A stretch of DNA of 17,771 bases, taken from positions 8,666 through 26,436 of the forward strand of contig MEWM01000036.1 in assembly GCA_001775355.1 (NCBI GenBank). The letters are read 5' to 3'. Origin of the DNA: a candidate division Zixibacteria bacterium RBG_16_43_9. GTDB taxonomy: Bacteria > Zixibacteria > MSB-5A5 > RBG-16-43-9. The translations under genes were made by a program, and so were the position numbers. Position 1 is the stretch's first letter. Each line of letters starts with the position of its first letter. Under the pieces are notes generated by a model. It had not been told where the DNA came from and made no database searches. It worked only from the letters and a program-made list of their open reading frames with translations. Positions 1,188 through 6,339 of the stretch are shown here, piece by piece.

Positions 1188-2036
1188 ATGACTTTGAGAT
1201 TGTCTTCAAATAATAAATTTACAATTAATAATCAAACTCTTCTATTAGGAGATTCTTTAAATATTTTACCTACTTTAAAAAAGCAATTTGACGCATGTAT
1301 TACTGATCCACCTTATAATATATCTGGGTATGATCATAAAAAAGAAATTGGTTGGCTTAAATCTAATAAATTCTGGACCGAACAAAAAAAGTTCTACAAA
1401 ATAGATGAAAGCTGGGATAAATTTTCTAATGGCGATTATGAGAGATTCACAGAAGAGTGGCTAAAAATGGTATGTTGTTTAGTAAAGAAAAATGGAAATA
1501 TAATAATATTTGGAACCTATCACAATATTTACAAAATTGGTTACTTGTTAGAAAAACTTGACAAAAAAATTATAAATTCTATCGTTTGGTATAAAAGAAA
1601 TGCTTTTCCCAATATAACACAAAGAATGCTTTGTGAAAGCACAGAACATATTATATGGGCAGTTAATAATAGTCAGAAAAATGCTAGCAACTGGATTTTC
1701 AATTATAATTTTTTGAAAAGTATAAATCATGGAAAACAAATGAGAAATGTTTGGGACATACCAAGCACACCTCAAAATGAGAAAGAATTCGGAAAACATC
1801 CTTCACAAAAGCCAGTTAAAGTGATTGAAAAATTAATTATTGGATTTACAAATAAAGGTGATAATATCTTGGACCCATTTATGGGTAGTGGTACAATCCC
1901 CTTGGTTTGTATGCTACATGATAGAGAAAGTTTATGTATAGAGAATAATGAAGATTATTATAATTTAGCAGTGAAAAGATTGAAAGGATCAAATAAAAAT
2001 AAAAATGTAGATGCTTTTGAGTTGTTATCATGTTAA
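1188..2036 (+). CDS. DNA adenine/cytosine-N4 methyltransferase, beta class, DpnA/MboIIA-like
   Basis: Amino-group DNA methyltransferase, 282 residues, using S-adenosylmethionine. The catalytic DPPY motif (residues 40-43) comes before the SAM-binding FMGSGT motif (231-236), the order of the beta class. KHPSQKP (203-209) precedes motif I as usual. The stretch with HNIY, STEHIIWA and HGKQMRNVW resembles what I recall of M.DpnA and M.MboIIA, which argues for adenine methylation, but the target site cannot be read from the sequence. The ATG at 1188 has only a weak ribosome site. It overlaps the next gene by 7 bases, so the two are co-translated. Codon use is strongly AT-biased, unlike most of the window, which points to transfer with the neighbouring methyltransferase and nuclease. 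Confidence 0.93.
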   Translation: MTLRLSSNNKFTINNQTLLLGDSLNILPTLKKQFDACITDPPYNISGYDHKKEIGWLKSNKFWTEQKKFYKIDESWDKFSNGDYERFTEEWLKMVCCLVKKNGNIIIFGTYHNIYKIGYLLEKLDKKIINSIVWYKRNAFPNITQRMLCESTEHIIWAVNNSQKNASNWIFNYNFLKSINHGKQMRNVWDIPSTPQNEKEFGKHPSQKPVKVIEKLIIGFTNKGDNILDPFMGSGTIPLVCMLHDRESLCIENNEDYYNLAVKRLKGSNKNKNVDAFELLSC

Positions 2037-2731
2037 AAGAATGGTTAAACACAATTCAATGTATTGATTGCATTGACGGACTTAAGAAAATACCTGACAA
2101 TTCTATAGATCTAATTATTGCTGATCCTCCCTACGGGATTAGCAGAGAATTAAATTGTAAAAATCAGAAGTTAGGTACAACAGCAAAATTGAATTTTGAT
2201 TTTGGAGAATGGGATAAATTTGACAAGAAATGGTTCGAAATTGCTATTAAAAAGACAAAAGGTTGGATTGTGACGTTTTGCGCTAAAAAAGATATTGGAG
2301 TCTATTGGGATATTTTAGAGAAAAATGGTTTTGTTGCAATAGACTCAATAGCTTGGATAAAACCAGACCCTCTTCCACTAAATGCTAAAAGTAGATTTTT
2401 AAATGCGTGGGAATCTATAGTTGTTGGTAAAAAATCTGGAGCATATTGGGGAAGCAAATATTTCCCGAATATATTAAAGTTTCAGGCGCCAAAAGGAAGA
2501 GATAGAATTCACCCAACACAGAAACCTTTAGGATTGATTGAAAAATTAATAGAATTAATGACTAAAAAAAATGATATTGTGCTTGATCCGTTTATGGGTA
2601 GTGGAACAACTGCAGTTGCTTGTAAGCAACTAGGCAGGCATTTTATTGGATTTGAAATTTCTAAAGAATTTTATGAACTAACAAAAAAAAGACTTAATGG
2701 AATCAGTGAAAGATTAGAGATTCAATTATAG
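2030..2731 (+). CDS. second beta-class DNA methyltransferase of the island
   Basis: Small amino-group DNA methyltransferase, 233 residues. DPPYG is at 32-36, HPTQKP at 161-166 and DPFMGSGT at 186-193, again the beta-class order. It is clearly diverged from the upstream enzyme rather than a recent duplicate. Two separate methyltransferases serving one nuclease usually mean that the site is asymmetric, each enzyme modifying one strand; that is established for type IIS systems and an inference here. The start overlaps the preceding stop by 7 bases. The stop codon overlaps the stop of the convergent nuclease gene by 6 bases, so the two transcripts must be complementary at their 3' ends unless transcription stops inside a gene. 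Confidence 0.92.
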   Translation: MLKEWLNTIQCIDCIDGLKKIPDNSIDLIIADPPYGISRELNCKNQKLGTTAKLNFDFGEWDKFDKKWFEIAIKKTKGWIVTFCAKKDIGVYWDILEKNGFVAIDSIAWIKPDPLPLNAKSRFLNAWESIVVGKKSGAYWGSKYFPNILKFQAPKGRDRIHPTQKPLGLIEKLIELMTKKNDIVLDPFMGSGTTAVACKQLGRHFIGFEISKEFYELTKKRLNGISERLEIQL

Positions 2732-3730
2732 TATTTCTATTGCGTCAATTTTTTCAAGGTCTCGTATAGATAGCGAAACTTGTAATCTTCTTAATTCCTT
2801 GCCCTGTACAGCAAATCTTTTAAATTTTTCTTTCAACTTTTCCCTTAATCTTGAAACAACTAATTTGGGGAGTGCTTTATATATCTTAACAATTTCAAAT
2901 TTTTGTTTATCTACTACAGCCAGAATAATCGCTTTGTCTTTTAGATATTTGTTTAAAACGTTATCCGAAATGTCTTGAAAATTCCATGAAAATGTTTTAG
3001 ATACTTTATATTCATAATAGTTACCTTCATCGTCGATAGCATCATGTGCCGCTTGCTCAGTAAGAACTTTATGACCTAATTTGATTGCTATCAACAATTC
3101 CCAGCATTTATTACTTGTCAAAATATCTTTTACCTTTGCGATCTTTTCAATTTGTTTAGTAATTACTAATATTCTGTTTAACCATTTATCGTACCCTCCT
3201 CTTAAATTAGATTCAAAAGAGTTTTTTTTAATATCTAGTTCTTTTTCAATCTGATGTGGACTTACATTTATCATTTTTCTTTTATTGATTATTTTTATAG
3301 TCTTTTCTTTTAAGTACTTTGAGATTAGTTCTCCTGGAACAATAAAGCACCAATCCATAAAAGGTTTATCACATAGATCATTAATATGTGCAAAAACAAC
3401 AGCTTTCACAGAATTTAGTTTTTCTATAGTAGTATCAGAGAAATCATTAAAAGTCCAAGTGTGATTAGAACTGGTCTCTTTATAATGTTTATATTCATAC
3501 TCATCTCTATTTTCATCTCTCCCATTACGTGAACCGGAATGTCCTGGAATTAAGTTATGGTGTAATTCGTTTGCTATTATTATTTCAAAAATCTTACTAT
3601 TAGAGTATATGTCATTTACTCCAAATAATTCAAAGAACTCATTCTGAATCTGAACTAATTCATTAACTAATTCTGTAATTTTATTTTTATATTCCATAGT
3701 TTTATCCGGATCAGAGGCTTCCACCTTCAA
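2726..3730 (-). CDS. putative restriction endonuclease with two tandem PD-(D/E)XK-like domains
   Basis: I do not recognise a named family. The protein has up to 334 residues and contains an internal duplication: residues about 46-143 and 208-303 align, each with an early Glu in a helix (E49; E211), acidic residues before the core (D76; D233/D234), an EYK triad (E79-K81; E240-K242), then a Trp-Thr/Asn-Phe-x-Asp-x-Ser-Asp segment (TWTFNDFSD; SWNFQDISD) and a LKEK end. The E...D...ExK pattern is that of PD-(D/E)XK nucleases, and both copies keep it. Position beside two methyltransferases makes restriction the likely role. The first start is TTG at 3730; ATG at 3697 (residue 12) is equally possible, and neither has a good ribosome site. 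AT-rich like its partners. Nuclease fold is inferred from motifs, and the site is unknown. Confidence 0.75.
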   Translation of the reverse strand: MKVEASDPDKTMEYKNKITELVNELVQIQNEFFELFGVNDIYSNSKIFEIIIANELHHNLIPGHSGSRNGRDENRDEYEYKHYKETSSNHTWTFNDFSDTTIEKLNSVKAVVFAHINDLCDKPFMDWCFIVPGELISKYLKEKTIKIINKRKMINVSPHQIEKELDIKKNSFESNLRGGYDKWLNRILVITKQIEKIAKVKDILTSNKCWELLIAIKLGHKVLTEQAAHDAIDDEGNYYEYKVSKTFSWNFQDISDNVLNKYLKDKAIILAVVDKQKFEIVKIYKALPKLVVSRLREKLKEKFKRFAVQGKELRRLQVSLSIRDLEKIDAIEIL

Positions 3731-4023: not shown

Positions 4024-5010
4024 ATGCCAGCTAATTTGACTCCTCAATATTTAGAAGCGGAAAGGAAATACAAGCAGGCCAAGACTGTCGAGGAAAAGCT
4101 TTCTGCTTTAGAGGGGATGCTTGCGACCATCCCTAAGCACAAGGGGACTGAAAAGCTTCAAGCTGACATAAAGACCAGGATCTCCAGACTAAAGGACCAG
4201 GAGAAAAAAACTAAAGGGGGGAAAAGGGAAGACCTTTATTATATCAAAAAGGAAGGGGCTGGTCAGGTGGTTATTATCGGTTCTCCAAATGCTGGTAAAT
4301 CTCGGCTTTTAGCCTCCTTGACCCATGCCAAGCCAGAGGTGGCACCTTTTCCCTTTACTACCCAGAAGCCTTTAGCCGGTATGATGCCCTATGAGAATAT
4401 CCAGATTCAACTGATCGATACCCCGCCCATCACCCATGATTTCTTAGAAAGCGGGATGCTGGGACTGATCCGCAATTCAGATTTAGTCTGGTTGGTGATA
4501 AATTTAAGCTTAGATGACCCTTTAGCTGAATTAGAGATGGTCAAGAAAAGGCTGGAGGAGAAAAAAATCAGGCTGTGCGGGGATGAAAAAGGCGTGGCTT
4601 TGCAGGTGGGTGAGATCTGCAAAAAGACTATGATTTTAGGGAATAAAAATGATCTGGAAAATGCTGCGGAAAACTGGCAGGTCATAAAGGAGTTGTACAG
4701 CAAATCTTTTTCCTTATACTCTGTTTCCGCGGAAAAAAAACAGGGTCTGGAGGAATTGAAAAGGGAGACCTTCGAGAAGCTGGAAATTCTAAGAGTTTAT
4801 ACTAAAATCCCGGGAAAACCTTTAGATTATACTGATCCGGTTATCCTGAAAAAAGGGCAAAAAGTATTAGATGCCGCTTTTATCATTCACAAGGATTTTG
4901 CCCATAATCTGAAATATGCCCGGATCTGGGGCAAAGGCAAATATGAAGGGCAGATGGTGCACCGGGACCAGGTGCTAACGGATGGAGATGTGATAGAGTT
5001 TCATCTTTGA
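4024..5010 (+). CDS. Obg/DRG-family GTPase with C-terminal TGS domain
   Basis: Cytoplasmic GTPase, 328 residues, of the Obg-HflX superfamily, whose members mostly act on ribosomes. G1 GSPNAGKS is at 86-93, G2 threonines in FTT 111-113, G3 DTPP 132-135, G4 NKND 207-210 and G5 SAE about 235-237; TGS domain about 258-328. The N-terminal 65 residues are charged and probably helical, with no Obg glycine-rich domain, so it is not ObgE; it looks nearest to DRG-type proteins. I chose ATG 4024 because GGAAAGGAG stands at the right distance and a consensus promoter lies between 3955 and 3983, which excludes an in-frame start at 3919. The last 53 codons and 31 bases beyond the stop are repeated at 5718-5911. 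Exact role unknown. Confidence 0.9.
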   Translation: MPANLTPQYLEAERKYKQAKTVEEKLSALEGMLATIPKHKGTEKLQADIKTRISRLKDQEKKTKGGKREDLYYIKKEGAGQVVIIGSPNAGKSRLLASLTHAKPEVAPFPFTTQKPLAGMMPYENIQIQLIDTPPITHDFLESGMLGLIRNSDLVWLVINLSLDDPLAELEMVKKRLEEKKIRLCGDEKGVALQVGEICKKTMILGNKNDLENAAENWQVIKELYSKSFSLYSVSAEKKQGLEELKRETFEKLEILRVYTKIPGKPLDYTDPVILKKGQKVLDAAFIIHKDFAHNLKYARIWGKGKYEGQMVHRDQVLTDGDVIEFHL

Positions 5011-5041
5011 TTTCTGGTGGAACAGACATCCTGTCTGTTCC
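4848..5041. repeat. 194-bp direct repeat, left copy (GTPase 3' end)
   Basis: This matches 5718-5911 with three differences in 194 bases. It covers GTPase codons 276-328, the stop and a downstream hairpin (GGAACAGACA at 5019-5028 facing TGTCTGTTCC at 5032-5041). It ends exactly at the foot of that hairpin, where the transposase unit begins. In the right copy the same hairpin goes on into a second one, so this copy is the cut-off one. Confidence 0.95.
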
Positions 5042-5088
5042 GCTTTTTCGTAGGGTCGGGGGACCCAACAGGCACAGGAAACCGCGCT

Positions 5089-5114
5089 CCCGCTGGATGT
5101 TATCATCCAGCGGG
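5089..5114. repeat. left terminal hairpin of the RAYT unit
   Basis: Stem CCCGCTGGATG (5089-5099) with CATCCAGCGGG (5104-5114), loop TTAT. It ends 10 bases before the transposase start codon and contains its ribosome-site region (GGGGAAG). Its inverse shares the 14-base core of the right hairpin. Confidence 0.8.
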
Positions 5115-5124
5115 GAAGTAAAAA

Positions 5125-5682
5125 ATGGGAAAGTTCGCCAAGAAATTTCAAGACAACGGACTTCTGTTCATTACTAATACGATTATTGATTGGAACAAGA
5201 TCTTCCACTTATCCAGGTATGCTTTGATAGTGATGAATAGCTTGAAATACTGTATTGAAGATGAATGGTTCGAATTATATTCTTATATCTTAATGCCCAA
5301 TCATCTCCATCTCATTTTAAAAGTATTGAAAAATCACACCATAGAACAGATATCCAGAGATTTCAACAAATATACTGCCCAGCAGATTCTACTCACCCTT
5401 AAGGATAAAAATCCCGAGATGCTGGATTTGTTTTGGGTTGGGACCAAAAAACAAAATTACAGAGTCTGGCAAGAAGATGGAGACATAAAAAATGTTATTT
5501 CCCCACAATTTCTTCTTCAGAAGGCAGAATATATTCACAACAATCCATTGAGAGGGGATTGGAGAAAATTCTTAAAAGTGGAGAGATCCGAGGATTATGA
5601 ATATTCCAGTGCCAGATTCTATGTAAGCGGGGTCGAAGACAAATATGTGAGACTGAGTGATCTGCGAAAACTGGTCGTTTGA
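5125..5682 (+). CDS. REP-associated tyrosine transposase (RAYT, Y1 HUH)
   Basis: Single-domain IS200-like transposase of 185 residues, normal for the family. The HUH metal-binding motif is MPNHLHLI (57-64, with H60 and H62), the likely nucleophile is Y83 in NKYTAQQ, and the family hallmarks YIHNNPLRG and DYEYSSARFY follow. RAYTs cut single-stranded DNA next to hairpins marked by a GTAG-type foot and are held responsible for spreading REP sequences. This window is full of such hairpins, which makes the enzyme the natural candidate for making them. The start at 5125 has GGGGAAG six bases upstream. All catalytic residues are present and there is no frameshift, so it is probably active. It stands alone, with no partner gene. 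Confidence 0.92.
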   Translation: MGKFAKKFQDNGLLFITNTIIDWNKIFHLSRYALIVMNSLKYCIEDEWFELYSYILMPNHLHLILKVLKNHTIEQISRDFNKYTAQQILLTLKDKNPEMLDLFWVGTKKQNYRVWQEDGDIKNVISPQFLLQKAEYIHNNPLRGDWRKFLKVERSEDYEYSSARFYVSGVEDKYVRLSDLRKLVV

Positions 5683-5689
5683 TTGAGAC

Positions 5690-5709
5690 GGCGGATGATA
5701 ACATCCGCC
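5690..5709. repeat. right terminal hairpin of the RAYT unit
   Basis: Stem GGCGGATG (5690-5697) with CATCCGCC (5702-5709), loop ATAA, seven bases after the transposase stop. The loop is the inverse complement of the left hairpin loop, so the two ends are mirror images. Confidence 0.8.
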
Positions 5710-5717
5710 TAAGAGCG

Positions 5718-5880
5718 GAAAAAAGGGCAAAAAGTATTAGATGCCGCTTTTATCATTCACAAGGATTTTGCCCATAATCTGAAATATGCCAGGATCTGGG
5801 GCAAAAGCAAATACGAAGGGCAGATGGTGCACCGGGACCAGGTGCTAACGGATGGAGATGTGATAGAGTTTCATCTTTGA
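5718..5880 (+). pseudogene. duplicated C-terminal fragment of the TGS-GTPase gene
   Basis: This repeats codons 276-328 and the stop of the GTPase gene with three base changes. Two are silent; the third gives Ser where the intact gene has Gly305 (GKS against GKG). It has no usable start codon or ribosome site and is not in frame with the transposase, so it is not expressed as protein. GKS is, as far as I recall, the commoner form in TGS domains of this family, which hints that this fragment is the original gene end and that the copy now in use is the one that arrived or drifted. Confidence 0.9.
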
Positions 5881-5886
5881 TTTCTG

Positions 5887-5944
5887 GTGGAACAGACATC
5901 CTGTCTGTTCCATAACTATAGTCAGACAGGAATGTCTGACCTAC
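5887..5944. repeat. complete paired-hairpin (BIME-like) element
   Basis: The first hairpin is AACAGACA/TGTCTGTT (5891-5909 region, after GTGG). A nine-base spacer follows, then GTCAGACA (5921-5928) facing TGTCTGAC (5933-5940), and CTAC at 5941-5944. The two hairpins share the word CAGACA in opposite orientation. Only the first half is present in the left duplicate at 5019-5041. Confidence 0.8.
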
Positions 5945-6003: not shown

Positions 6004-6339
6004 ATGGGAAAAGTCATAATGATAAACAATGAAAGAATGGGACAGGGAGAGACTGAATTGACCACTCTTTTGATGGGGAATTTTTTGAGAAGTCTGGTCA
6101 GTTCGGAAAAGAAACCTGAATTTTTGATCTTCTATGCCTCCGGAGTAAAGCTGGTCTCTGAAGGCTCGGTCTATCTTGAAACACTTGTCTCCCTGGAAAA
6201 TTCAGGGGTAGAGGTACTTTCCTGCTCCACCTGCCTGAATTATTACGGGCTTACAGATAAAGTCAAAGTAGGGAAAAAGAGTAATATGAAAGAGATCGTA
6301 GAGGTTCTCTTAAAATTCGAGGGTACTATTACTATTTAA
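6004..6339 (+). CDS. YedF-type DsrE-like protein
   Basis: Small cytoplasmic protein of 111 residues that matches the C-terminal DsrE-like half of YedF proteins linked to sulfur and selenium metabolism. Visible family marks are GQGETEL (13-19), FYASGVKL (43-50), the cysteine motif CSTC (74-77) with LNYYGL after it, and SNM (93-95). The N-terminal TusA (SirA) half present in full-length YedF is absent, and no reading frame for it exists upstream, where hairpin repeats fill the spacer. The ribosome site GGAAGG ends two bases before the ATG, closer than ideal. Role in this organism is inferred; a selenium or sulfur relay function is the likely one. No selenium genes are seen nearby. Confidence 0.85.
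   Translation: MGKVIMINNERMGQGETELTTLLMGNFLRSLVSSEKKPEFLIFYASGVKLVSEGSVYLETLVSLENSGVEVLSCSTCLNYYGLTDKVKVGKKSNMKEIVEVLLKFEGTITI

Follow-up and report, generated by a model that had tools for sequence, protein, structure and literature searches.

A REPtron between two copies of a GTPase gene end in a candidate division Zixibacteria genome looks like an insertion with long target duplication

Here, we report that a REPtron, a RAYT-like transposase gene flanked by two REP hairpins, lies between two 194-nt copies of the end of a GTPase gene in candidate division Zixibacteria bacterium RBG_16_43_9, and that both the unit and the second copy of the gene end are missing from the same site in a relative that is about 94% identical. 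The structure looks like a known but rare type of event, insertion with long target duplication, and not like the work of an element that mends its own target gene. We favor, with moderate confidence, a single insertion of this type that formed during the repair of a break or of replication. The analysis covers a window of 17,771 nt, by which we mean the whole stretch of DNA under study (contig MEWM01000036.1, positions 8,666 to 26,436). In the following, G000 is the source genome, G001 and G002 belong to the same genus, G003 belongs to the same family and G009 represents another genus of the order.

As the sequence-only reading of this DNA had stated, a direct repeat surrounds the RAYT unit: the two copies, which start 870 nt apart, are equal at 191 of 194 positions (98.5%), a match that is far beyond chance. 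Each copy holds the final 53 codons of the GTPase gene, the stop codon and the first of two hairpins. If the repeat is called B, the GTPase part before it A, the inserted unit X and the part downstream C, the locus reads A-B-X-B-C (Table 1), with X taking up the 676 nt from 5042 to 5717 that include the RAYT-like gene. The copies differ at three positions (left copy/right copy/G002: c/a/a at 4921, g/a/g at 4936 and t/c/t at 4944), and comparison of the copies bears out that two of these differences are silent, while the third changes Gly305 to Ser. The left copy stops at 5041, which is the final base of a 10-bp core stem (5019-5028/5032-5041). It had been described as stopping exactly at the foot of the hairpin, and this holds for the core stem but not for the full predicted fold, in which the hairpin gains two pairs by using the first two inserted bases. 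The right copy does run on into the second hairpin, as had been noted, and the same continuation is found in G002.

Table 1. Features at and around the duplicated gene end (positions in the window)
Feature	Positions	Strand	Evidence
TGS-domain GTPase gene, intact	4024..5010	+	MMR_HSR1 and TGS domains; 97% amino acid identity to G002
Left copy of B	4848..5041	+	Repeat comparison
Hairpin ending the left copy of B	5019..5041	+	Fold z -7.05
44 nt similar to another dispersed repeat, perhaps flank of the donor	5042..5085	+	Similarity; fold z -0.24
REPtron, natural span from GCTC to GAGC	5086..5716	+	Ends compared with L085 and 18 REP doublets
Left REP hairpin	5089..5114	+	Fold z -6.07
RAYT-like HUH transposase gene, 185 aa	5125..5682	+	PF01797, NF047646, motifs
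Right REP hairpin	5690..5709	+	Fold z -4.60
Right copy of B, remnant with Ser305	5718..5911	+	Repeat comparison, residue alignment
Second hairpin of the original pair	5921..5940	+	Fold; same in G002
yedF-like gene	6004..6339	+	TIGR03527, 119.2 bits (cut-off 110)

First, the site can be compared with its empty state. In G002, whose DNA is about 94% identical to that of the source lineage, a single GTPase end, the paired hairpins and the yedF-like gene follow each other in a row with neither insert nor repeat, which is in full the ancestral order that had been proposed from the source sequence. G003 (79% amino acid identity) likewise has the GTPase gene followed by the yedF-like gene, separated by a different short spacer and again with no insert and no repeat, while G001 has no orthologue-level match to the GTPase and hence cannot be used for this comparison. 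The empty sites in G002 and G003 imply that the insert and the second copy of B are derived in the source lineage. The proposed link between duplication and insertion is supported, and a direct repeat without the transposase, which the earlier reading had named as evidence against itself, is absent from both. The target is thus single in the empty relative and doubled around the insert, the pattern that characterizes insertion with long target duplication. Compared with G002, the 5' part of the GTPase gene is 94.2% identical, the two copies of B 95.4% and 94.8%, the spacer that follows the copies 96.7% and the yedF-like gene 90.8%. Both copies share all of the informative sites that separate the source lineage from G002 (8/8), and the left copy has one private change and the right copy two. 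Judged by these sites, the duplication postdates the divergence from G002 and copies the resident allele, and a crude count suggests an age of about a third of the divergence between the source lineage and G002.

Second, the inserted unit has the properties of a RAYT REPtron. The open reading frame encodes a protein that scores 23.8 bits against PF01797 (cut-off 23) and 71.9 bits against NF047646, below the cut-off of 80 for REP-associated tyrosine transposases, and for this reason we refer to it as RAYT-like. Its HLH and YIHNNP motifs align with those of its relatives, and we take the Tyr of YIHNNP to be the catalytic residue. The HUH/Tyr motifs and the REP ends agree with the transposase type that had been claimed, at an NF047646 score under the cut-off. 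The protein database contains a cluster that is 98% identical to the protein, with three differing residues, while a PDB search gave no match at E 0.001 and the viral contigs searched gave none. The nearest relative found together with its flanks is L085, on a Candidatus Zixiibacteriota contig (67% amino acid identity, with an in-frame stop). By protein search, 15 of 59 genomes carry a relative at E 1e-15, other homologues in the source genome are at most 43% identical, and the best relatives in G001 and G002 are 45% identical and located among other hairpins.

The ends of the unit can be defined from L085, where GCTC and a hairpin lie to the left of the RAYT gene and a hairpin and GAGC to the right, and from dispersed REP sequences. 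A search for the REP hairpin core that allowed up to one mismatch gave 50 matches in G000, 81 in G001, 43 in G002 and 5 in G003, and the reversed pattern, used as a control, gave none in any of the four. Many of the cores in G000 form inverted doublets, and in a set of 18 such doublets the left end carries GCTC in 16 and the right end carries GAGC in 14. The foot tag of this family is therefore GCTC and not the canonical GTAG, and it is from the GCTC and GAGC ends in L085 and in the doublets that the natural span in Table 1 is derived. Inverted REP hairpins at both ends of the unit, as seen in predicted folds, together with dispersed genomic copies, are the hallmarks of a RAYT REPtron. The family of GCTC-tagged doublets is abundant in G001 and G002 despite the distant RAYT proteins there, and since these stand beside other hairpins, both assemblies appear to hold the REP family without its cognate enzyme. 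Relative to the natural ends, the right copy of B starts 1 nt beyond GAGC, and the left copy ends 44 nt before GCTC. Most of this left stretch (42 nt, 5042-5083) is 86% identical to one locus each in G002 and G001, with shorter matches elsewhere, and the 44 nt fold no better than shuffled sequences. Thus, by sequence comparison, the right end of the insert is precise, and the left end carries a donor-like flank. A second copy of the whole unit was not found in the 74%-complete source assembly, and since the unit occurs there once, we infer a donor and its flank. The similar locus in G002 and G001, flanked by ORFs that read by eye as radical-SAM genes, is at most a candidate for the donor site, as its orthologue was not found in G000, which gave short repeat matches only. 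Elsewhere in G000 (L098:837-2500), a REP doublet is followed at a distance of 1,621 nt by a similar one whose right flank is also alike; the matching stretch holds one doublet in G001 and none in G002.

Third, we asked how general the arrangement is. We scanned 32 RAYT loci, this one included and L167 left out, for flanking direct repeats; L087, from a Candidatus Zixiibacteriota record, and L139, the RAYT region of G002, are apparently the same locus, so that the set is partly non-independent. The agreement of these two makes a member of Candidatus Zixiibacteriota the most likely host. Eight loci have no such repeat at E 0.01, and three have a repeat of at least 100 nt at 95% identity or more, namely this locus, L089 and L143. 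Inspection of five loci suggested that L139, L140 and L145 are REP arrays. In L143, the RAYT gene of G039, a 281-nt direct repeat of 99% identity (L143:27-307 and the right flank) includes the gene's own last codons and the hairpin region, and resembles a partly lost tandem copy or a circle-derived one. In L089, from a member of the Sphingobacteriaceae, the RAYT gene lies between 102-nt copies (2791-2892 and 3583-3684) of what reads by eye as the start of a neighboring gene, which makes it a possible second case of a RAYT with a long duplication. Its second copy forms the end of the contig after an exact match of 99 nt, counted by eye, and this length may reflect assembly k-mer overlap; the repeated stretch was found nowhere else in its genome, and no other of the 60 genomes searched (its own included) covers the region. 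Further RAYT copies that carry the end of a neighboring gene, which the sequence-only reading had suggested looking for, did not hold up among the 32 loci.

REP clusters served as a control. For 42 clusters (30 in G000, 11 in G002 among the matches listed and 1 in G009), up to 500 nt on either side, less where a contig ended, were compared for their highest-scoring ungapped direct repeat. In none of the 42 does such a repeat lie within 10 nt of both cluster ends, and the best score is 29 as compared to 185 at this locus; REP spread in the genus therefore does not usually leave a long duplication. A comparison of filled and empty doublet sites, based on ten queried flank pieces and 14 locus pairs, yielded three aligned loci where the relative lacks the doublet, and none of these is a clean, precise empty site.

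We therefore propose the following sequence of events, in which the REPtron (REP hairpin, RAYT-like gene, REP hairpin) would have been copied or captured during the repair of a break or a stalled fork, together with 44 nt of its presumed left donor flank. The repair strand would already have passed the gene end and the first hairpin when the unit was joined to it, and synthesis or end-joining would then have resumed 194 nt upstream, so that B was produced twice. The enzyme perhaps supplied the right end by a cut at the right REP. The junctions and their order are seen directly in the contig as assembled, and it is from them that we infer the pathway, that is, a single event, repair as its cause and any role of the enzyme. 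The empty sites in G002 and G003, the lineage-specific allele common to both copies of B, the precise right end, the donor-like left flank and the end at the hairpin foot speak for insertion with duplication, and the Dup-IS-Dup structure of IS481 and the insertions of restriction-modification genes with long target duplication may, as analogies, be counted on the same side. On the other side, the 74%-complete source assembly yielded no second copy of the unit as a donor, the end of the left copy at the hairpin foot may be due to chance, two successive events would yield an identical structure, and microhomology at the junctions could be judged only with the donor sequence at hand. A broader version seems doubtful to us: RAYT-like enzymes would feed their own REPtron into forks that have stalled or broken, with one end cut by the enzyme (the right REP) and the other loose, repair would tend to leave duplications of 100-200 bp, and L089 would be a second case.

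Other routes to the same structure have to be weighed. The REPtron could have arrived in two steps, by entry after the first hairpin (A-B-X-C) followed by tandem duplication of B-X and precise loss of the second X. The junction of the right copy of B with the second hairpin matches that of G002 exactly, the REPtron would have entered at a hairpin foot between genes, and the repeat in L143 has the appearance of a partly lost tandem copy, but this route needs three exact steps and its intermediate is not seen in G002 or G003, which makes it unlikely in our view. An assembly chimera of strains or repeats is a concern in a metagenome-derived genome that is as fragmented as this one (160 contigs, 74% complete). 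We nevertheless consider it rather improbable because the copies of B differ at 3 sites, the unit is embedded in a contig with about 13.7 kb to its left and 12 kb to its right, and the near-identical proteins in the database (98%) comprise 11 member sequences. A circle of B and X, generated by the HUH enzyme or by recombination and integrated by homologous crossover at B, would yield exactly A-B-X-B-C, and single-strand circles are known for IS200/IS605 elements according to passages of PMC6006769; yet X would need to have been joined to B beforehand, and no copy of this kind was found in the source genome, which leaves the circle quite improbable. It is very improbable that a gene-restoring element entered inside the GTPase gene and kept the frame with a carried or remade 3' end, since no integrase or attachment core is seen in the insert, the gene need never have been broken and no other gene-end carrier withstood the survey, even though the gene is intact, the copy retains the stop codon and the hairpin, and the gene end may have been duplicated a second time in G009.

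The findings on the GTPase gene itself bear on this last point. The order A-B-X-B-C may reflect equally well an entry before B, in which the gene was broken and restored, or an entry after B, at the foot of the hairpin downstream of the gene. In the latter case, with X entering at 5041/5042 between the two hairpins, the GTPase gene would have stayed intact all along. The 676-nt insert encodes no integrase, and among ORFs of 70 aa or more the RAYT-like gene alone falls entirely within 5042-5717. Among 29 aligned homologues, residue 305 is Gly in 23, His in 2 and Thr, Ala, Lys or Glu in 1 each, and in none is it Ser. This alignment suggests that Ser305 of the remnant is the derived residue, a change in an unused copy, and reverses the earlier impression that the remnant is closer to the family form. 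With the entry point ambiguous, no integrase and a derived Ser305, the idea of an element that supplies or generates a new 3' end for the gene finds no support. Nor does the description of the GTPase as essential-looking, as 8 of 59 genomes (G001, G005, G018, G024, G026, G033, G043 and G056) have no orthologue-level match, although some of these absences may reflect assembly gaps or misses at first look; one of the eight, G026, is a single contig given as 99% complete. Six GTPase fragments from five other genomes lie at contig ends or no more than about 35 nt away from them and were discounted as breaks in the assembly. This gene end is duplicated in one RAYT case, and G009 has a decayed 93-nt copy (79.6%) of its own GTPase end (contig C119, L131:815-907), which lies 7 nt after a BglII-type restriction endonuclease gene. 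This copy, on one of two unjoined contigs, is more suggestive of a restriction-modification insertion that duplicated its target than of gene restoration. In our window, two N6/N4 methyltransferase genes and a PvuII-like endonuclease gene (1188-3730) lie just upstream of the GTPase gene where G002 has only about 320 nt, and no long repeat flanks them in the window, the direct repeats found being at most 26 nt.

Restriction-modification insertions with long target duplication were reportedly found in Helicobacter pylori by Nobusato et al. in 2000. Our locus is similar to these in that the insert is absent from a close relative, where the target is single and not doubled, and in that the duplication is far longer than the target site duplication of a transposase; the cargo, by contrast, is a REPtron, the case is single and the likeness is drawn by way of citing papers. 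Passages of two such papers describe insertion with long target duplication for restriction-modification genes (PMC1643837; PMC3031569). According to excerpts of a recent study in P. fluorescens SBW25, an IS481 copy arose between two copies of a 59,943-bp duplication, within a REP, with no target site duplication and with donor bases copied along, and the authors propose insertion into a break while also allowing for two successive events (Ngan et al., 2024; PMC11708052). The excerpts further recount that ISDra2, an HUH element, transposes during the reassembly of a broken genome (PMC11708052). The REPtron studied here resembles this Dup-IS-Dup case as a transposable unit placed exactly between the copies of a duplication, at a REP, with no target site duplication and with donor bases along; it differs in that 194 bp and an HUH RAYT-like enzyme take the place of 59,943 bp and a DDE transposase. 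With the RAYT REPtrons of E. coli and Stenotrophomonas and the TnpA-REP of Marinomonas it shares an HUH-Tyr enzyme, inverted REPs at both ends and genome-wide REPs, but its tag is GCTC, its NF047646 score is under the cut-off and the unit is at a new site. IS200/IS605 elements such as IS608 and ISDra2 belong to the same enzyme superfamily; their insertion products have precise ends and no larger duplication, in contrast to the 194-bp repeat and the 44 extra nt on the left seen here. It had been pointed out that enzymes of this class do not commonly produce long duplications, and the relevant passages of PMC2817692 accord with this.

Finally, the comparison of a filled site with an empty one dates the relocation of a REPtron and provides both of its junctions. 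Within the sections consulted, the literature reports no typical sign of IS-like mobility for RAYTs (PMC2817692), no evidence of mobility for tnpA-REP (PMC8266576) and no formal evidence of autonomous mobility for RAYTs (PMC6006769), whereas a mention of RAYT genes at a novel chromosomal site in Pseudomonas counts against novelty (part of PMC3686654). Our literature search, partial in its coverage, found no report of a RAYT with long target duplication. In the case described here a REPtron has come to occupy a new site, and published RAYT work, in the portions covered, reports no evidence of such mobility. If our reading is correct, RAYTs that seem immobile may on rare occasions be captured at breaks, and a new kind of cargo would be added to those known for insertion with long target duplication.
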